Shown here: piece by piece, positions 12,801-63,191 of the stretch
Position numbering within the stretch: the first letter of the stretch is position 1
Layout of the letters: each line of letters starts with the position of its first letter
Assembly: GCF_016027715.1 (NCBI RefSeq)
Contig: NZ_CP065691.1
Span: forward strand, 1,769,954 to 1,833,953
From: Lactococcus garvieae
Lineage (GTDB): Bacteria > Bacillota > Bacilli > Lactobacillales > Streptococcaceae
Length of the DNA stretch: 64,000 bases
Reading direction: 5' to 3'
The notes under the pieces: model-generated
Told to the model about the DNA's origin: nothing
Seen by the model: the letters and a program-made list of their open reading frames with translations, nothing else
Databases searched by the model: none
Made by a program: the position numbers and the translations under genes

Positions 12801-13285
12801 AAACGAAGACGAATTCCGAGATATTACTAGGACTAGATGCCTTTATTCCTAGTTATTACATTGGAGATGAGCGTCAAAAAATTGAAATTTACAAACGTAT
12901 TCGTCAGGTTGATAATCGTCAAAATTATGAAGAACTTCAAGATGAATTGATGGACCGATTTGGCGAATATCCAGATGAGGTTGCTTATCTTTTAGAAGTC
13001 GGTTTATTAAAAACGTTTGCGGACAATGCCTTGGTTGAAAAAATTGAGAAGACCAAATTTGAAGTTGTATTGAGTATGGCCAAATCTGCTAATACGATGT
13101 ATGACCCCCAAGAGTATTTTGAAGCCTTGTCAGAAACAACCTTGAAAGCTAGTGTCGGCGAAAAATTAGGTAGAATGACTTTTCGATTTAAGATTGAAAA
13201 ACGCACAGATGTGGTCCTTCTAAGTGAAATAATGAAGTTTACAGAAAAATTATCTGAGCTTAGAGATAAACACGAAAAAGAATAA
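9800..13285 (+). CDS. mfd: Transcription-repair coupling factor Mfd
   Basis: An 1161-residue DNA translocase that removes stalled RNA polymerase and recruits nucleotide excision repair. Domains in order: UvrB-homology region (about 1-350), the RNA polymerase interaction domain around [14 protein letters not shown] (about 490-560), then the RecG-like helicase with [11 protein letters not shown] (Walker A), [31 protein letters not shown] and RGRVGRSNR, and a C-terminal TRCF domain. Length is normal. It overlaps pth and ends at a long palindromic terminator. Confidence 0.96.
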
Positions 13286-13314
13286 TGTTTCATATGAAAC
13301 ATTATTCTTTTTTT
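13276..13314. terminator. Palindromic terminator after mfd
   Basis: GAATAATGTTTC (13280-13291) pairs perfectly with GAAACATTATTC (13296-13307) around ATAT, with A-tract before and T-tract after. It can end transcripts in either direction, though only the rightward mfd transcript needs it here. Confidence 0.85.
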
Positions 13315-19823: not shown

Positions 19824-19862
19824 AGAAAAGTACTGTTCGAGAGGGCAGCGCAATAATAAGAT

Positions 19863-19934
19863 GGTCCGTTGGTCAAGGGGTTAAGACACCGCCTTTTCAC
19901 GGCGGTAACACGGGTTCGAATCCCGTACGGACTA
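19863..19934 (+). tRNA. tRNA-Glu(TTC)
   Basis: A full cloverleaf: acceptor GGTCCGT / ACGGACT (first pair G-U), anticodon stem CCGCC / GGCGG with loop TTTTCAC giving anticodon TTC, and T arm CGGGTTCGAATCCCG. The CCA end is not encoded. It is the first gene of the tRNA operon. Confidence 0.95.
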
Positions 19935-19939
19935 TTTTT

Positions 19940-20029
19940 GGAGGATTACCCAAGTCCGGCTGAAGGGAACGGTCTTGAAAACCGTCAGGCGGGTAAAACC
20001 GTGCGTGGGTTCGAATCCCACATCCTCCT
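19940..20029 (+). tRNA. tRNA-Ser(TGA)
   Basis: Acceptor GGAGGAT / ATCCTCC, anticodon stem ACGGT / ACCGT with loop CTTGAAA (anticodon TGA), a long variable arm and T arm GTGGGTTCGAATCCCAC: a class II tRNA as expected for serine. CCA is not encoded. The base after the acceptor stem reads T, whereas many serine tRNAs have G there. Confidence 0.95.
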
Positions 20030-20038
20030 TTTTATTAT

Positions 20039-20112
<74 letters not shown>

Positions 20113-20132
20113 TTAGATTATAAATTACATTT

Positions 20133-20205
20133 GGCTCGGTAGCTCAGTTGGTAGAGCAATGGATTGAAGCTCCATGTGTCGGCGGTTCGATTCCGTCTCG
20201 CGCCA
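20133..20205 (+). tRNA. tRNA-Phe(GAA)
   Basis: Anticodon stem ATGGA / TCCAT with loop TTGAAGC gives GAA. D arm and T arm (CGGTTCGATTCCG) are normal. The acceptor GGCTCGG / TCGCGCC has a T4-C69 mismatch. I recall the same bases in streptococcal tRNA-Phe, so the gene is probably functional. Confidence 0.93.
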
Positions 20206-20208
20206 TTT

Positions 20209-20279
20209 GCGGGTGTAGTTTAGTGGTAAAACCTCAGCCTTCCAAGCTGATGTTGTGAGTTCGATTCTCATCACCCGCT
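20209..20279 (+). tRNA. tRNA-Gly(TCC)
   Basis: Acceptor GCGGGTG / CACCCGC, anticodon stem TCAGC / GCTGA with loop CTTCCAA (anticodon TCC), and T arm TGAGTTCGATTCTCA. It follows tRNA-Phe by three bases. Confidence 0.95.
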
Positions 20280-20317
20280 TAATTTGACTATTAATTTAGG
20301 AAAATTTTTAAAAATTT

Positions 20318-20391
20318 GGGAGCATAGCTCAGTTGGTTAGAGCACTGTGTTGATAACGCAGGGGTCCGAGGTTCAAATCCTCGTGTTCCCA
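20318..20391 (+). tRNA. tRNA-Ile(GAT)
   Basis: Acceptor GGGAGCA / TGTTCCC, anticodon stem CTGTG / CGCAG with loop TTGATAA (anticodon GAT), and T arm GAGGTTCAAATCCTC. Only two bases separate it from the 5S gene. Confidence 0.95.
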
Positions 20392-20393
20392 TA

Positions 20394-20509
20394 TTTGGTA
20401 TTCATTGCATAGGAGATACACCTGTTCCCATGTCGAACACAGAAGTTAAGTCCTATCACGCCGGAAGTAGTTGGGGGTTGCCCCCTGTGAGATAAGGTAA
20501 ATGCCAAGT
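20394..20509 (+). rRNA. rrf: 5S ribosomal RNA, solitary copy
   Basis: About 116 bases. The ends pair (TTGGTATT with AATGCCAA), and the internal GGAGATACACCTGTTCCCAT and CGAACACAGAAGTTAAG are the conserved 5S core. No 16S or 23S gene is present in the window. The 5S lies inside the tRNA operon between tRNA-Ile and tRNA-Asn, like the tail of a ribosomal operon (5S-tRNA-Asn) joined to a tRNA cluster. End positions are approximate. Confidence 0.92.
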
Positions 20510-20511
20510 AT

Positions 20512-20585
20512 TGCGGATTAGCTCAGTTGGTAGTAGCGCATGACTGTTAATCATGATGTCGTCAGTTCGAGTCTGACATCCGCAG
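20512..20585 (+). tRNA. tRNA-Asn(GTT)
   Basis: Acceptor TGCGGAT / ATCCGCA, anticodon stem CATGA / TCATG with loop CTGTTAA (anticodon GTT), and T arm GTCAGTTCGAGTCTGAC. It is the last gene of the operon and directly precedes the terminator. Confidence 0.95.
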
Positions 20586-20590
20586 TGTAG

Positions 20591-20615
20591 AGACAATCTA
20601 AGGATTGTCTTTTTT
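20591..20615 (+). terminator. Terminator of the tRNA/5S operon
   Basis: AGACAATC (20591-20598) and GATTGTCT (20603-20610) form an 8-bp stem with loop TAAG and a T6 tail. Confidence 0.9.
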
Positions 20616-20656
20616 AGTTTTATTATATAAAACGATGAAACCGCTAACTCTTTTAC

Positions 20657-20685
20657 TTGAAAAAGAGAGTAGAACATGTTAGTAT
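20657..20685 (+). promoter_or_regulatory. Promoter of the 6S-like RNA
   Basis: -35 TTGAAA (20657-20662), 17-bp spacer, -10 TAGTAT (20680-20685) with an upstream TG (20677-20678). The predicted start is near 20692. Confidence 0.6.
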
Positions 20686-20691
20686 AAGAAT

Positions 20692-20894
20692 ATAGAAAAG
20701 CACTGGAATGTGCGAGCATACTCAATTTTTTGACCGACTATATTTGTATTGCATAGGGGTTCAAGAGACATTCGATAGCGTTAAGACTCCGAATCGAGTA
20801 GGAGCAGCTGATTTGAAGCGAGAACACCCACCTGGCTTCGAGCGGGTTCAATACTAGAGTATGCACACGGCATTCAATCAGTGTTTTTTTTTGT
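20692..20894 (+). ncRNA. ssrS: 6S RNA candidate
   Basis: About 200 bases, the usual 6S size. The two ends form a long closing stem: CACTG, GAATG and GCATACTC (20701-20723) pair in order with GAGTATGC, CATTC and CAGTG (20857-20883), and the last arm runs into a T-tract that serves as terminator. Between them lies a rod-like interior including CACCTGGCTTCGAGCGGGTT, which resembles the conserved 3' strand next to the central bubble of 6S RNA. 6S RNA binds sigma-A RNA polymerase and mimics an open promoter (established). No open reading frame is present. The gene stands alone behind its own promoter. Confidence 0.7.
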
Positions 20895-20944
20895 GCTTTT
20901 ATATGAAGAGTGATATTTTTTTATTGAAGTAAAAGTATAAACCT

Positions 20945-20982
20945 AGCGAGAATATCGCTTTTTTCTTTTCTCAAGAAAAGAA
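20945..20982 (+). terminator. Two small hairpins after the 6S-like RNA
   Basis: AGCGA-GAATA-TCGCT followed by T6 (20945-20964) looks like a terminator. TTCTTTTCT-CA-AGAAAAGAA (20963-20982) is a second inverted repeat right behind it. The next 110 bases up to the regulator gene hold only a TATAAT at 21082-21087, its likely -10. Confidence 0.5.
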
Positions 20983-21107
20983 AGTTTACAGTAATGGTTT
21001 CTCAGATTGACAGCTCTTCTAACTGCAGTTATAACAGCACGCAAGAAATATTTGCTAGACATTTAATAATTTTTGATATATTATAATGTGGTAAGAAAGG
21101 AGTAAAC

Positions 21108-21728
21108 ATGGAGCTATCCACTGTTTTAGTAGAAGAACGTAAGAAAAAAGGCGTAACGCAACAAAGCGTTGCAGATGCTCTCTATATTTCTAGACAGTCT
21201 CTTTCGAACTGGGAAAACGGAAAGAATTTTCCAGATGTACCTATGCTTATCGAATTAAGCAACTATTACGATTTTTCACTCGATATTATTAAAGGAGATA
21301 CGCAATTTATGGAGCAAGTCAAAAAAGATTATGAATTAATCAATACCAAAAAGGCGAATAAAAAGTACTCAATAATACTGATTGTCCTAACTACTTTGAT
21401 TGTGCTTTTTTCAGTGGTATTAGTTCCTCTTGTCTCTCATAATATAACTTTACTAAATAGTGTTACAGTTGTTATTTCCCTCCTTTGTATCGCTCTCATG
21501 CACGTGGCTGTTGGTTTCACAAAAGTTGCTTACCAACATTATAAAGGACTACCAGACTCACCTCTGTGGGTTCCAAAGGCATTTGGTTATGGCGTGAGTA
21601 TAAATCCCTATAGTAAGTTTGGTAGAATATTGACACTTGCTCTTTTAGTCATTATTGACCTTTTGTTTATTGGGATGAGTATCGCTATTTTATTTTTGGG
21701 TTACTCTGCTACTTCATTTATGCATTAA
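21108..21728 (+). CDS. XRE-family regulator fused to a membrane domain
   Basis: A 206-residue protein. Residues 1-60 are a Cro/CI-type helix-turn-helix (GVTQQSVADALYISRQSLSNWENG). Three hydrophobic stretches follow at about 88-109, 114-136 and 172-199. Such HTH-plus-membrane proteins occur next to peptide toxin, bacteriocin or immunity genes in lactic acid bacteria (inference from family context). AAAGGAG precedes the ATG and TATAAT lies at 21082-21087. A small membrane gene follows 122 bases downstream on the same strand and may be its partner. Confidence 0.75.
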   Translation: MELSTVLVEERKKKGVTQQSVADALYISRQSLSNWENGKNFPDVPMLIELSNYYDFSLDIIKGDTQFMEQVKKDYELINTKKANKKYSIILIVLTTLIVLFSVVLVPLVSHNITLLNSVTVVISLLCIALMHVAVGFTKVAYQHYKGLPDSPLWVPKAFGYGVSINPYSKFGRILTLALLVIIDLLFIGMSIAILFLGYSATSFMH

Positions 21729-21850
21729 AAAAGTTTAATAGTAGCAAGTAAGAATATTATTATCTATTAAATAATGGGCTCAAAAAAGAGTGCACTTTAA
21801 AGCCTTGAGAAAGAAGTATTTTTATTATAAGAAACTGTTCGGAGGAACTC

Positions 21851-22207
21851 ATGTATAAATTATCTCTATTATTGGATCGTATTTATGCTAAATTTTTTAT
21901 TATTACAATTTCCTTGTCGTTATTGTTACTAGGATTGTCATTTTATTTATATCCTAAATTACCAAGTTATATTCCCACTCATATTTTTTTGAGGAGAGGC
22001 TTTGATAATTGGTGGCATAAAGAAGTTATATTCATATACCCTCTTATATTTCTAATATTGGGAATTACTTTCTCTAAAAGCAATATTGCTAAACAGTTTT
22101 CGCAAGGAAAGCCTTTGTTTTTTATTGAAAGCTTTGCTGTCGCTTTAACTATAATCGTTTTAATTTCTACTATATTTGCTTTTAATTTCTATTTCAACAT
22201 GAGATAA
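21851..22207 (+). CDS. Small membrane protein, DUF1648-like
   Basis: A 118-residue protein with three membrane segments (about 13-33, 58-76 and 92-113). The piece YPKLPSYIPTHIF between the first two resembles the DUF1648 signature found at the N-terminus of SdpI-type immunity proteins. The assignment is weak and the remaining SdpI helices are missing. CGGAGG lies seven bases before the ATG. It follows the XRE membrane regulator, so an immunity or stress role can be guessed but not shown. Confidence 0.55.
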   Translation: MYKLSLLLDRIYAKFFIITISLSLLLLGLSFYLYPKLPSYIPTHIFLRRGFDNWWHKEVIFIYPLIFLILGITFSKSNIAKQFSQGKPLFFIESFAVALTIIVLISTIFAFNFYFNMR

Positions 22208-22439
22208 AACTATCGAATATATTTAGTTTTTTTCCCTACAATTTGTCTTATATGGGCTAGTTTCTTTGAAGTTGTATATATTTAGGCTCCTCGTATCGTA
22301 GAAGCTTCAAATAAGGCTCTTAAAGCCTCCTGACGCCCTTTTATAAATAAAAGTGTTATCTTACCCTACTCCACAGATAGAGGGTTAGAATAAGCTTATA
22401 ATGCGCTTGTTAGTAATAAGTGAAGACATACAAAAATTC
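22208..22439. other. Gap with no recognisable gene
   Basis: AT-rich DNA between the DUF1648-like gene and the tRNA-Lys promoter. I see no open frame with a ribosome site and no strong hairpin. Confidence 0.5.
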
Positions 22440-22467
22440 TTGCTTTTTTTGCTGAAAGTGCTATACT
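22440..22467 (+). promoter_or_regulatory. tRNA-Lys promoter
   Basis: -35 TTGCTT (22440-22445), 16-bp spacer, -10 TATACT (22462-22467) with TGc directly before it. Confidence 0.75.
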
Positions 22468-22494
22468 AATAAAGTAAGTTATTACACGTGAATA

Positions 22495-22567
22495 GCCTCC
22501 TTAGCTCAGTTGGTAGAGCAGTAGACTCTTAATCTATGGGTCGCAGGTTCGAGCCCTGCAGGGGGCA
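22495..22567 (+). tRNA. tRNA-Lys(CTT), attachment site of the mobile element
   Basis: Acceptor GCCTCCT / AGGGGGC, anticodon stem GTAGA / TCTAT with loop CTCTTAA (anticodon CTT), and T arm GCAGGTTCGAGCCCTGC. Its 3' end is repeated at 28988-28999, and an integrase gene lies 0.6 kb away. This tRNA is a common insertion site for integrative elements in streptococci and lactococci. CCA is not encoded. The tRNA remains intact. Confidence 0.95.
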
Positions 22568-41484: not shown

Positions 41485-41732
41485 GAACAAAAAACGCCCG
41501 TAGAGCATTGTAAAAAAACTCTACGGGCGTTATCACGCGGTACCACCGTAATTTGAAATTCTTTGAATTTCCTCTGGCTCGTCAAGAAACGAGTGCTTTT
41601 TTAACGGGAGCAGCCGTGATTTATATTGCTTAAAATCATCATTTATTGTCAGTCCATTCACTTTTCTAAAAACATTGACTCGCACCACCGTCAACTTCCT
41701 AAAGAATTTTATGAAAAGCTACTCTTCTGATA
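41485..41732 (-). promoter_or_regulatory. T-box riboswitch of trpS (specifier TGG)
   Basis: On the minus strand the leader starts near 41732. The specifier codon TGG for tryptophan lies at 41654-41656 in the stem I loop (GTGAATGGACTGAC). The T-box sequence with GGTGGTACCGCG is at about 41536-41548. The terminator follows: AACGCCCGTAGAG (41519-41531) pairs with CTCTACGGGCGTT (41493-41505), then T-run. Uncharged tRNA-Trp would stabilise the antiterminator and switch trpS on (established mechanism). Confidence 0.93.
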
Positions 41733-41738
41733 TTTGAC

Positions 41739-42308: not shown

Positions 42309-42368
42309 ACTTATACACATGTGGAAAATATTTCTACAAGATATTTTTTGCGAAGAGGCATGAAAATT

Positions 42369-42404
42369 AAAAAACAGTTATTCACATGTGAATAACTGTT
42401 TTTT
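42369..42404. terminator. Perfect palindromic terminator after the OsmC gene
   Basis: The 18-base half AAAAAACAGTTATTCACA is followed by its exact reverse complement, giving a 36-base palindrome with A- and T-tracts at the ends. Confidence 0.9.
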
Positions 42405-42746
42405 ATGTACTTTGTTTTCAATAATATTGTGGCGTGTAAAAAGATTAGACAAAAAGAGCAAAAGTTATTGAAACTGCTCATCCAAAAGTAAGATGTCAAC
42501 GTACTGTCAAATATATTTACAGTGGTAGAAAAGGTGTTTCAGCTTAGTTTACGATAATAACAGTTAGAGGTATAAAGGATTGTTTTTTATAAACAATATT
42601 AAATTCTGTTTGCGTTTGGTTATCTTAGGCGGTCTTTTGCGATATTTGTAGTAGAATAGAGAGAGGAATTTCGCAAACCAACACCATAATAAAAGAAAAG
42701 TGAGCTTCTTAAAGAAGCTCGCGCCCTAGAAATGGGAGGTGCATGT
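42405..42746 (+). promoter_or_regulatory. mgtA upstream region and hairpin leader
   Basis: A -10 TAGAAT lies at 42652-42657 and is bracketed by a near-perfect repeat TTTGCGATATT / AATTTCGCAAA (42636-42646 / 42667-42677). The leader has a 10-bp hairpin GTGAGCTTCT / AGAAGCTCGC (42700-42722). A second, overlapping stem GCGCC / GGTGC (42721-42725 / 42738-42742) encloses the ribosome site GGGAGG. This could make mgtA translation switchable. I do not see the conserved pieces of the M-box or of the yybP-ykoY motif. The 240 bases further upstream show no gene. Confidence 0.5.
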
Positions 42747-59141: not shown

Positions 59142-59170
59142 AAAAAATCGTCATTTCTGACGATTTTTCT
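59142..59170. terminator. Bidirectional terminator between the metal ATPase and rarA
   Basis: AAAATCGTCA (59144-59153) and TGACGATTTT (59158-59167) around TTTC. The rarA stop lies in the stem. Confidence 0.9.
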
Positions 59171-60419
59171 TTTGTTCTTCAATCCATTTTTTACGTTCAC
59201 TTAGCGCCCACTCATATTTTCCCATACGATCAGGTTGGAAATAATCCACTTTTCGCAATCTCTCCGGCAAATATTCTTGCTCAACCCAATGGTCAGGAAA
59301 GTTATGAGGGTACTTATATCCTTCACTACGCCCGAGGTCTTTGGCGCCAGCGTAATGCCCATCTTGCAAATGTGAGGGTATAGGGAGATTGCCGTACTTA
59401 CCTAAATCCTCTATGGCTGAGTCAAGTGCAACATAAGCAGCATTTGACTTTGGAGAAAGAGCTAAATCAATAACAATATTGGCAAGAGGAATTCTTGCTT
59501 CTGGGAAACCTAGTTTTTCTGCGGCCTGTAAACCTAGCATGGTATGGACAGCAGCTTCAGGATTTGCCAAACCGATATCCTCATAAGCTATAACGGTCAA
59601 GCGGCGAGCAAGGCTTTGTAAATCCCCTCCCTCGATTAATCGCGCCGCATAGTGTAAACTTGCGTTTACATCAGAACCACGAATTGACTTCTGCAAGGCA
59701 CTCAGTAAATCATAATGCGCATCACCGTCTTTGTCAAAAGTGAGGGCTTTCCGCTGTAAAGAGTTTTCCATATCGTCAAGACTTACATGGTGGTTTTCAG
59801 AGGATAAAACAGCCAGCTCCAAAGCATTGTAAACGGCACGTAAATCGCCATTTGTTGCATGTGTAAGAAAGTAAAGGGCATCATCATCCATAGTAACACG
59901 GAAATCAAAGCCTCGCGTATCATCTTTAAGGGCTAGGTTTACAGCTTTTTGTAAATCCTCGCTATCCAGAGGCTTGAGCTCAAAAATTTGTACTCGACTG
60001 CGAATGGCGGGTACAACGCTGAAATAAGGATTTTCTGTGGTTGCTCCGATTAAGATGATTTGTCCATTTTCTAGTAAAGGTAGAAGAAAATCTTGTTTCG
60101 GTTTATCTAGACGATGTATCTCATCAAGGAGCAGTACCAGTTGTCCGGAAAATTCTGCTTCAGATGCGATTTCTTGCAATTTTTTCTTACTGTCAGTCGT
60201 GGCATTGAAACTCCGAAAAGCAGCATTCATCGTACCCGCAATTGCCGAAGCGATGGACGTCTTTCCGATACCTGGAGGGCCATAAAGAATCATTGAAGTT
60301 AAAAGTTTTGTCTCAACCATGCGACGAATAATTTTTTTAGGACCCACGAGATGCTCTTGGCCAATAATTTCGTCAATATTTCGAGGCCGCATACGCCGCG
60401 CTAAGTTTTGATGAGTCAT
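59151..60419 (-). CDS. rarA: Replication-associated recombination protein A (MgsA/RarA)
   Basis: A 422-residue AAA+ ATPase related to clamp loaders that acts at stalled replication forks. Walker A is GPPGIGKTS (K53), Walker B is LLLDEIHRLDK, and sensor 1 is in IGATTENPYFSV. The C-terminal helical domain has ARRLTVIAYEDIGLANP and the end KYPHNFPDHWVEQEYLP. Length is normal. It lies 20 bases downstream of the acetyltransferase gene. Confidence 0.95.
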   Translation of the reverse strand: MTHQNLARRMRPRNIDEIIGQEHLVGPKKIIRRMVETKLLTSMILYGPPGIGKTSIASAIAGTMNAAFRSFNATTDSKKKLQEIASEAEFSGQLVLLLDEIHRLDKPKQDFLLPLLENGQIILIGATTENPYFSVVPAIRSRVQIFELKPLDSEDLQKAVNLALKDDTRGFDFRVTMDDDALYFLTHATNGDLRAVYNALELAVLSSENHHVSLDDMENSLQRKALTFDKDGDAHYDLLSALQKSIRGSDVNASLHYAARLIEGGDLQSLARRLTVIAYEDIGLANPEAAVHTMLGLQAAEKLGFPEARIPLANIVIDLALSPKSNAAYVALDSAIEDLGKYGNLPIPSHLQDGHYAGAKDLGRSEGYKYPHNFPDHWVEQEYLPERLRKVDYFQPDRMGKYEWALSERKKWIEEQKKNRQK

Positions 60420-60439: not shown

Positions 60440-60913
60440 CTAGAGGTAATAAGCGTAAATCAAACTGTCAATATAAGTTCCATCAATAAAGTATTCCTTT
60501 TTTAATTCTCCTTCACGCACAAAGCCGAGGTGTTCATACAGAGTGAGTGCTTTAGGATTACTTGACATAGCATTGATAGTGATTTTTTCATAATTTTCAG
60601 TCCGAGCTTCTCGGATGAGGTACTGAATGAGTGCCGTAGCGACTCCTTTACCGCGAGCTTCTTGCACCGTCATCACACCAAAAGTGATAACATGTGATCC
60701 AAACTCGGACTTGTTACGCTGCCCATAGTCTAGAACACCTAGAATTTTCCCGTTTTCTTCGGCAAGAAGATAACGCGTTCCTTTTAGGATTTTTTTCATT
60801 ATCTTCTCTGCGGAACTGTTAATGATGAATGGTGTCGATTTTAAAGTCCAGTTTTGGTTTTCGATTTTGGCCACGTTCGCGAAATCATGGGGTTCAATAG
60901 GTCTAATTTTCAT
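60440..60913 (-). CDS. GNAT-family N-acetyltransferase
   Basis: A 157-residue acetyltransferase. The acetyl-CoA site is VQEARGKGVATALI, and the C-terminal motif is ALTLYEHLGFVREGELKKEY, close to RimI/PhnO-like enzymes. ATG 60913 begins the usual MKIRPIEPHDF; longer starts would cross the promoter palindrome. The substrate is unknown. It shares a palindromic promoter region with the divergent DUF3013 gene. Confidence 0.85.
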   Translation of the reverse strand: MKIRPIEPHDFANVAKIENQNWTLKSTPFIINSSAEKIMKKILKGTRYLLAEENGKILGVLDYGQRNKSEFGSHVITFGVMTVQEARGKGVATALIQYLIREARTENYEKITINAMSSNPKALTLYEHLGFVREGELKKEYFIDGTYIDSLIYAYYL

Positions 60914-60939
60914 ATATTTCTCTCTAGAGATAATTTTTA

Positions 60940-60966
60940 TTTCTGTTATAATAATTATAACAGAAA
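60940..60966. promoter_or_regulatory. 27-bp perfect palindrome with overlapping divergent -10 boxes
   Basis: TTTCTGTTATAAT (60940-60952), one A, then the exact reverse complement (60954-60966). Each arm holds an extended -10 TGtTATAAT: the plus one (60944-60952) faces the DUF3013 gene, the minus one (60954-60962) the GNAT gene. No -35 boxes are seen on either side. Confidence 0.8.
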
Positions 60967-60980
60967 AAAGAGGTGAAAAA

Positions 60981-61445
60981 ATGGCAAAGTATGGTTTTTT
61001 AGATATTTTAGATGAAGAGTTGAGCAAGAATTTTAGTTATGATTATGAGATAAATTGGGACAAACGCAATTTTGCGGTAGAAGTCAGTTTTTTATTGGAA
61101 GCTGCGAATCCTGAGGGAATCGCTTTGTCAGACGCCGATGGGGTGGAATCAGAAGAAAATATTCTCTATGAAGATGCAGTAATTTTTTATAACCCAAATA
61201 AATCAAAGTTTTCGGAGGAAGAATACTTAGCAGGTGTTGCTTATTCTGACAAAGGTTTGTCCCGGGAATATATTGCATATTTTGTGGCATTTTTACAGGA
61301 AACAGCTGATAAGGGCTTGGATGCCTTGATGGATTTCTTGGACTCAGAAGAGGAAGAATTTATGCTTGAATTTGATCAAGAAAAATTTGAATTGGGACTA
61401 GAAAAACTGGAAGAAACTACTTTTTTCAAATACCCACGTTATTGA
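60981..61445 (+). CDS. DUF3013 family protein
   Basis: A 154-residue acidic protein matching what I know of DUF3013, a family limited to Streptococcaceae and usually found just upstream of prmA. It opens MAKYGFLDILDEELSKNFSY and ends with a glutamate-rich stretch and FFKYPRY. No catalytic motif is evident. AAAGAGGTG lies six bases before the ATG. prmA and rsmE follow in the same direction. Confidence 0.8.
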   Translation: MAKYGFLDILDEELSKNFSYDYEINWDKRNFAVEVSFLLEAANPEGIALSDADGVESEENILYEDAVIFYNPNKSKFSEEEYLAGVAYSDKGLSREYIAYFVAFLQETADKGLDALMDFLDSEEEEFMLEFDQEKFELGLEKLEETTFFKYPRY

Positions 61446-61478
61446 GCCAAAGCATAGAGAGATAAGAAAGTGAAGAAA

Positions 61479-62432
61479 ATGAACAATTGGAACAGCATTA
61501 CCGTAAGTATCCTACGTGCCGCCGAAGAAGCCGTCAGCAACATATTGATTGAAGCTGGTTCAGCGGGAGTGGAAATCAATGACAGTGCGGACTATCTCAA
61601 CCATCAGGACCTCTTTGGAGAAGTTCTTCCAGAAGTGGAACAATCTGAAATGGTTGAAGTGACAGCTTACTATCCAGAAAATTTACCAATCACAGAGCTT
61701 AAGTCAGATATTGAGCAAAAGATAAAGGCTTTAGCTGGGAGCTTTGATCTATCCAACGTAGAAGTTAGGACCAATAATCTGGCAGAACAAGATTGGGCGG
61801 ATGCTTGGAAAAAATACTTTGAGCCAGCCCGTATTACCCATGATTTAACTATTGTTCCAAGTTGGACAGATTATGAGCCACAATCAATGGCAGAAAAATT
61901 GATTCGTTTAGATCCTGGTATGGCTTTTGGTACAGGAACACATCCAACCACAAAAATGAGCTTATATGCTTTAGAGCAAGTTATACGGGGTGGAGAAACT
62001 GTCTTTGATGTGGGGACAGGGTCAGGTGTTCTTTCCGTAGCAAGTGCCTACTTAGGGGCAAATGAGATTTATGCCTATGACATTGACGAAGTTGCTGTTC
62101 GAGTAGCACGAGAAAATATTGAACTTAATCCCAATACAGAAAAGATTTTTGTTTCAGCCAATAATTTATTAGAAGGCATTGAAAAAAAAGCAGAAATAAT
62201 CGTCGCTAATATCTTAGCGGATATCCTCGTTTTGATGACAGAAGATGCTTTTAACTTAGTTAAAGACGAAGGTTACTTGATCATGAGCGGAATTATCGCT
62301 GAGAAAGCAGATATGGTAATCCAATCTGCTGAAAATGCAGGTTTCTTCTTAGAAACACGCATGACTCAAGGAGAGTGGAATTGTGTGATTTTCAAAAAAA
62401 CGGAGAATCGAGAAGGAGTGATTGGCGGTTAA
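61479..62432 (+). CDS. prmA: Ribosomal protein L11 methyltransferase
   Basis: A 317-residue SAM-dependent methyltransferase that trimethylates ribosomal protein L11. The N-terminal substrate domain begins [18 protein letters not shown]. The SAM motif is [15 protein letters not shown], preceded by [12 protein letters not shown], and the NxxA motif is [11 protein letters not shown] chose ATG 61479 because it matches the family's start; GTG 61470 in frame would add three residues. It is followed after three bases by rsmE. Confidence 0.94.
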
Positions 62433-62435
62433 GTC

Positions 62436-63191
62436 ATGGCAAATCAGTATTTTATATTTAAAAAACAACCCCCAATTGGCGACATTTTTGCAATTGATGA
62501 CCAAGCAGCAGCACATCATATTTTTACGGTGATGCGGGCAAATGCTGGTGAAAAGATACAAGTGGTCTTTAAGGAAGGGCAAGTTGGTGTAGCCGAGGTT
62601 GTTTCAAGTGACCAAAAGACGGCCCGACTTCTAGAAATACTTGACACGCACACAGAGCTCCCTGTTCATGCAACAGTGGCACTAGGTTTTCCTAAAGGAG
62701 ACAAACTAGAGTTTGTGAGTGAAAAAGCAACAGAGCTTGGTGCAAGTGCTATCTGGGGTGCTCCTTTTAAATGGTCAGTGGCAAAATGGGATGCAAAAAA
62801 ACTCTCAAAGAAAAAAGACAAGCTCGATAAGATTGTTTTAGGGGCTGCAGAACAGTCTCGCCGACAAGTCCTTCCAGAAATTCGTTTTTTTGAAAAACTA
62901 ACAGAGCTAATTGCCGAATTTGCACAGTTTGATCAAGTTTTAATTGCGTATGAAGAATCTGCTAAAGCAGGAGAACAATCTATGTTTGCCCAAAGTATGT
63001 CACAACTTCAGGCAGGGCAGAAAATTCTTTTTATTTTTGGGCCAGAAGGTGGCATTGCTCCAGAAGAAATAGCATTATTTGAGCAGGCTGGAGCAAAGCT
63101 TATTGGTTTAGGACCACGTATCATGCGTGCGGAGACAGCTCCTTTATATGCCTTGTCAGCACTGTCCACCTATTTTGATTTACTGAAATAA
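62436..63191 (+). CDS. rsmE: 16S rRNA m3U1498 methyltransferase
   Basis: A 251-residue SPOUT-class methyltransferase. The N-terminal PUA-like part has HHIFTVMRANAGEKIQVV, and the knot domain has EKATELGASAIWG, ILFIFGPEGGIAPEE and LGPRIMRAETAPLYALS. It modifies U1498 in the decoding region of 16S rRNA. Order prmA-rsmE-relA is common in Firmicutes. Length is normal. Confidence 0.95.
   Translation: MANQYFIFKKQPPIGDIFAIDDQAAAHHIFTVMRANAGEKIQVVFKEGQVGVAEVVSSDQKTARLLEILDTHTELPVHATVALGFPKGDKLEFVSEKATELGASAIWGAPFKWSVAKWDAKKLSKKKDKLDKIVLGAAEQSRRQVLPEIRFFEKLTELIAEFAQFDQVLIAYEESAKAGEQSMFAQSMSQLQAGQKILFIFGPEGGIAPEEIALFEQAGAKLIGLGPRIMRAETAPLYALSALSTYFDLLK

Follow-up and report, generated by a model that had tools for sequence, protein, structure and literature searches.

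A perfect 27-bp palindrome between divergent GNAT and DUF3013 genes, probably a bidirectional promoter of two opposed extended -10 elements

Two divergent genes in the analyzed stretch of 64,000 nucleotides (the window) are separated by a perfect 27-bp palindrome, TTTCTGTTATAATAATTATAACAGAAA, at positions 60940-60966, and the question arises whether it is a promoter for both genes, an operator for a symmetric protein, or a switch between two expression states. Its arms of 13 bp each (60940-60952 and 60954-60966) mirror each other around A60953. Both contain the extended -10 element TGTTATAAT, that is, a TATAAT preceded by TGn, on the plus strand at 60944-60952 and on the minus strand at 60954-60962. 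The two -10 hexamers, at 60947-60952 (+) and 60959-60954 (-), are thus separated by a gap of 1 bp. The palindrome itself is exactly what the first-pass annotation had described, down to the coordinates, the length of the arms and the element in each of them. Its further statement that neither side has a -35 holds for a good -35: at a spacing of 15-19 bp, the best hexamer was TAGAGA on the plus side, with four of six matches and a spacer of 16, and had two of six matches on the minus side. A generic promoter scan yielded a weak minus-strand candidate with a shifted hexamer (TTCACC-18-TATTAT, 60977-60948).

To the right, the plus-strand element is predicted to serve the DUF3013 gene (60981-61445, +; PF11217, 1.8e-58), prmA for the ribosomal protein L11 methyltransferase (61479-62432, +; PF06325, 2.5e-104; start at an ATG, with a GTG at 61470 also possible) and a gene for an rsmE-type RNA methyltransferase (62436-63191, +; PF04452, 1.7e-52), beyond which a relA/spoT-like HD gene follows after a gap. 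To the left, the minus-strand element is predicted to serve the gene of a GNAT acetyltransferase (60440-60913, -, with the start codon at 60913; PF00583, 1.1e-15) and probably also the downstream rarA/mgsA AAA+ ATPase gene on the same strand (59151-60419, -; PF12002, 4.4e-59). With 7 bp between the -10 element and +1, the predicted starts are A60959 on the plus strand, giving a 22-nt leader to DUF3013, and 60947 on the minus strand, likewise an A on its strand, giving a 34-nt leader to GNAT as counted by hand. The two predicted starts are 12 bp apart on opposite strands. Likely ribosome-binding sites were found by eye for DUF3013 (GAGGTG, 60970-60975, +) and for GNAT (AGAGAG, 60920-60925, -). 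By the DUF3013 protein, the closest relatives with a name are Lactococcus petauri and L. formosensis, at 92%, which suggests a Lactococcus close to the L. garvieae group as the origin of the window.

Judged from the sequence, the palindrome is very probably a bidirectional promoter of the housekeeping sigma factor, built from two full-consensus extended -10 elements that do not depend on a -35. The housekeeping polymerase would recognize TGnTATAAT without a -35, and one RNA polymerase at a time would bind in either of two orientations, the opposed -10 elements being near enough that joint binding should be excluded. Rightward initiation at about A60959 would yield a DUF3013-prmA-rsmE mRNA, and leftward initiation at about 60947 on the minus strand a GNAT(-rarA) mRNA. 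We infer that initiation takes place at both starts, that the two elements cannot hold polymerases simultaneously and that each direction mildly limits the output of the other, with no bistable choice. The palindrome itself would arise because two consensus extended -10 elements face each other across one base and have T-rich outer flanks; its symmetry as such would not be kept by selection.

The rarity of the arrangement was assessed at several levels. The 27-mer with up to three mismatches occurred in none of 100 shuffles, and inverted repeats with arms of at least 13 bp occurred in none of 30. Long inverted repeats alone are unremarkable here, as four other sites in the window have terminator-like inverted repeats with arms of 18-19 bp. 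Single TGNTATAAT motifs were not enriched in the window (7 versus a shuffle mean of 4.11, with 15 of 100 shuffles reaching 7), nor were generic promoter-like sites between 58000 and 64000 (11 versus a mean of 13.2). Opposed full-consensus pairs with a gap of 0-30 bp occur once in the whole genome, namely at 60940-60966. Five further Lactococcus genomes contain between zero and three such pairs each, and four of the six genomes have any. This pattern is blind to overlapping motifs, for which the search covered the 16-bp form TGNTATAATTATANCA; that form was found at two further places in this genome and not at all in the control. One of them (G000:C2:1235052-1235067, L263:1001-1016) lies between divergent genes that, to judge from their translations, probably encode a TrmH/SpoU-like RNA methyltransferase and an acylphosphatase-like protein, and the other (G000:C2:839700-839715, L262:1001-1016) 13 bp before a gene for what is presumably a lipoprotein-like product. 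The opposed pair at 60940-60966 is therefore not unique: the genome holds two tighter full-consensus pairs, one of them between divergent genes. The predicted leftward start of the latter precedes the ATG of the TrmH/SpoU-like gene by about 1 nt, and its message would be nearly leaderless.

A looser 19-bp core, TGNTANAATNATTNTANCA, was found at 24 places in 14 of the 18 genus genomes, versus one for the reversed control, and 11 of the 24 are the GNAT/DUF3013 locus. The dyad CTGTTA-N4-8-TAACAG had three matches, as many as its control, in a spacing range that excludes this palindrome (N9). A genome-wide regulon of the dyad was considered and rejected: a single other place, L002, was within one mismatch of the 19-bp core, and the control also gave one. 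The L002 site is probably unrelated, because it is upstream of a chitinase-like gene and overlies what we take to be a catabolite-response element. An identical opposed pair, TGATAAAATAATTGTATCA, was noticed at three places in two genomes (G007:C1:86327, G007:C2:24759 and G010:C59:7112) and may belong to a mobile element.

Within the genus, DUF3013 was present in all 18 genomes, and 17 loci were compared, as the contig end in G014 cuts the locus inside the gene. Both opposed extended -10 elements were found between GNAT and DUF3013 in 16 of the 17 loci, with predicted starts 12 bp apart in 12 genomes and 15 bp apart in four. In G009, the two promoters have been pulled apart and the overlap is lost. 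G002 carries TGTTATAATTATTTTAACA at this locus, and in G004, G006, G008 and G010 the core measures 16 bp (TGTTATAATTATAACA or TGGTATAATTATAACA), three bases less than in the window. Leader lengths in the genus range from 21 to 119 nt. At the loci L004, L005, L006 and L007, which belong to these four genomes, the interval between the promoter and DUF3013 is longer by about 70-95 bases, which sit between repeats like TAACAGAAAA and are missing from the window.

The comparison was extended to the Streptococcaceae, where DUF3013 was found in 188 of the 196 genomes searched. The upstream regions of 184 of these (17 Lactococcus and 167 others) were examined, leaving out the cut locus of G014 as well as G051, G096 and G109. 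A GNAT or rarA match lay on the opposite strand within 700 bp upstream in 141 of the 184, and in 128 it started within 250 bp. Extended -10 elements were scored with consensus weights, and the best site per strand was used to calculate the distance D between the predicted starts. At 116 of these 128 loci, the best two sites overlapped face to face (D from 0 to 15). The 128 intergenic regions were then clustered by shared 6-mers, and one representative was taken from each of the resulting 34 clusters. Overlap was found in 23 representatives versus 7.9 expected under independent placement. A count of 23 did not come up in any of 200,000 simulations, although this is not a strict probability because the clusters share ancestry and are not independent. 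D among the overlapping clusters was 0, 3, 4, 9, 10, 12 or 15 bp; the 11 non-overlapping clusters include Lactococcus G009. The arrangement is common across the Streptococcus/Lactococcus family, and the palindrome, most likely a two-way promoter, is a clear-cut case of an established promoter type, not a new switch. The claim that two opposed extended -10 promoters at this site could not be occupied together is supported by the sequence and by this conservation in relatives.

The first-pass annotation had named loss of one arm in relatives with unchanged expression as evidence that would count against it, and for the arms themselves the picture was divided. Two loci without a recognized partner gene (G048 and G054) have indeed lost the minus-strand arm, and four others without a recognized partner within 700 bp (G069, G025, G161 and G143) have kept it, with scores of at least 6.8. 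A rule by which the arm is lost when the partner gene is lost was dropped on the basis of these mixed cases. At the same rarA/DUF3013 promoter, two loci of another genus (L074 and L075, from G060 and G033) have a different perfect palindrome, ATGTTATACTATATAGTATAACAT, whose symmetry was perhaps reached separately, for example by template switching.

Of 118 genomes belonging to the order, 81 have DUF3013, and 65 of these come from outside the Streptococcaceae. In the 15 DUF3013 loci examined outside the family, the overlapping opposed pair was absent by eye, and in 11 of them an open frame on the same strand ends just before DUF3013. As these loci do not have the pair, the overlapping promoter seems to be tied to the direct adjacency of the genes in the Streptococcaceae.

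Promoter and symmetric operator can be told apart by the way in which the two arms vary. A dimeric protein that needs symmetry should lead to mirrored changes in the arms and to fixed spacing. The spacing is not fixed, as the predicted start distance varies from 0 to 15 bp among relatives. For 30 distinct arm pairs with D of 9-15, matches between the arms were counted and compared with permuted pairs: 9 of 30 versus a mean of 11.6 for the n of TGn, 66 of 90 versus 64.7 for -10 positions 3-5, and 221 of 270 versus 222.3 for the 9-bp core as a whole. The core bases thus vary independently between the arms at these distances, without coupling. The outer four bases matched in 63 of 120 comparisons versus 54.0 permuted, a value reached by 4.5% of the permutations. 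In a wider set of 47 pairs, the outer four bases matched in 111 of 188 (93.6 permuted, 0.4%) and -10 positions 3-5 in 93 of 141 (85.1 permuted, 1.3%). The excess at the outer bases and at positions 3-5 is a hint of either symmetry or a shared base preference, and ordinary causes of such likeness are a similar T-richness upstream of both -10 elements and shared ancestry. In 94 pooled arms, the T of the TG was kept in 93 and the G in 91, an invariance that, like that at -12, -11 and -7, is partly circular, because the arms were picked by a score above 6 with the consensus weights. Hexamers with at least four matches to a -35 at a spacing of 15-19 bp were found in 18 of 83 cases on the forward side and in 24 of 83 on the reverse side, versus 16.9 in shuffled sequences; the -35 signal is therefore near the shuffled level, with a slight excess on the reverse side. 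Taken together, the uncoupled core, the varying spacing, the kept TG and the weak -35 argue for a bidirectional sigma-A promoter and not for a symmetric operator.

As an alternative, a symmetric repressor or other dimeric protein might occupy the palindrome in addition to the two promoters in this group of Lactococcus; this is improbable. Five close genomes (G000, G004, G006, G008 and G010) have retained the TTTC/GAAA symmetry of the outer bases, and the promoter of G060 and G033 also has perfect palindromes, as would suit such a protein. However, the half-sites have moved 3 bp nearer to each other in four of the five close genomes, two of which also have one arm changed (TGG), which indicates that the geometry for a dimer is not kept. 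In addition, a domain scan of six neighboring proteins revealed no transcription-factor domain and no regulator.

A more specific version, in which the palindrome is the operator of a Fur-family repressor whose dimer would shut both promoters, is very improbable, despite a striking sequence match. The 15 bases TTATAATAATTATAA at 60946-60960 agree at 15 of 15 positions, in a 7-1-7 arrangement, with what we take to be the Bacillus PerR box consensus, TTATAATNATTATAA, and this is the only exact match in the genome. However, PF01475 (FUR family) has no match in this 99.99%-complete genome, nor in 12 of the remaining 17 genomes of the genus. The five of 18 genus genomes that have a match (G002, G003, G005, G007 and G016) do not differ from those without one in the kind of arms they carry. 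PerR-box-like sites with up to two mismatches were not enriched (81 versus 114 for the reversed control), G004, G006, G008, G010 and most other loci of the family have lost the 7-1-7 spacing, and the TG, which is outside the PerR box, is kept in relatives. The site is thus like PerR/Fur boxes, which we take to be 7-1-7 inverted repeats, in its sequence and unlike such operators in that no Fur-family gene was found here and neither spacing nor core symmetry is kept in relatives. As neither a Fur-family match nor an enrichment of the box was found, the perfect PerR box most likely came about incidentally, from two TATAATs that face each other. The symmetric repressor site that the first-pass annotation had offered as a second option is consequently not favored, fixed spacing and coupling of the arms also being absent. 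PerR has been studied in streptococci, as the accessible part of one paper indicates (PMC3616900).

With a bidirectional promoter as the preferred reading, the effect of polymerase exclusion on expression was explored with a toy stochastic model, using parameters of our own in five settings. Exclusion cut the output by up to half, and the correlation between the two sides was no lower than -0.17 for mRNA and -0.15 for protein. The relative spread of protein rose with exclusion and did not fall, because the output fell. According to the available text of PMC12825309, the basal activity of five bidirectional promoters of E. coli was too low for competition, of which none was seen, and forced competition at acrA/acrR lowered noise. 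A mild mutual limit on output is plausible at the present locus, because both arms are near consensus. The coin-toss idea, in which transcription would alternate between the two sides through a stochastic two-state switch and each cell would express either GNAT-rarA or DUF3013-prmA-rsmE, would profit from the mutually exclusive occupancy that follows from the geometry. It is extremely unlikely in view of the weak anticorrelation in the toy model and the E. coli results; moreover, no feedback or memory element was seen, and the six neighboring proteins scanned have no transcription-factor domain.

The closest known systems are the prokaryotic bidirectional promoters of Warman, Grainger and colleagues, which, as far as the accessible parts of the papers describe them (PMC12825309, PMC10268837), have a near-symmetric -10 region with genes on either side. 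The present locus shares these features and, by prediction, closely spaced opposed starts and binding of one polymerase at a time. It differs from them in that the two -10 elements lie next to each other, with 1 bp between them, instead of sharing one hexamer, and in that both arms have the full extended consensus. The starts of bidirectional promoters are, in the same portions of these papers, most often 18, 10 or 23 bp apart, with small variation, in contrast to the predicted 12 bp here and 15 bp in near relatives. Streptococcal extended -10 promoters, as described in the parts available of PMC4448216 and PMC6431027, have the same TGnTATAAT and a weak or absent -35, but here two of them are opposed within 19 bp. 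For S. agalactiae, the first of these two sources gives TGn in 64% of the promoters and a -10 box only in 7%. A literature search found no paper on the GNAT/DUF3013 promoter locus.

The locus matters as a probable, naturally occurring bidirectional promoter in which both arms have the full consensus. It is possible, though unlikely, that this strong activator-free promoter has been kept across the Streptococcaceae because polymerase competition fixes and steadies the ratio between a DNA maintenance branch (rarA, GNAT) and a ribosome modification branch (DUF3013-prmA-rsmE). If so, arms this close to consensus would let competition take effect even at basal activity, unlike in the five E. coli promoters as the available text of PMC12825309 presents them. 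The family offers a natural spacing series, with predicted distances of 0, 3, 4, 9, 10, 12 and 15 bp and separated promoters as in G009, in which polymerase competition can be tested. The locus also calls for caution, as an AT-rich palindrome may consist of two opposed -10 elements even when its symmetry, or its match to the PerR box, is perfect.

A few observations were made apart from the promoter. In G272, a genome of another family, two equal-scoring DUF3013 matches were found (G272:C1:3024-3512 and G272:C2:1441681-1442169). The window has eight tRNA genes at 19862-22567 (+), seven of which are clustered with a 5S rRNA gene, and a T-box leader at 41520-41738 on the minus strand (99.2 bits). 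It also contains two perfect loopless palindromes of 38 bp with arms of 19 bp, at 13275-13312 and 42368-42405, which are A-rich on the 5' and T-rich on the 3' side and are probably two-way terminators.
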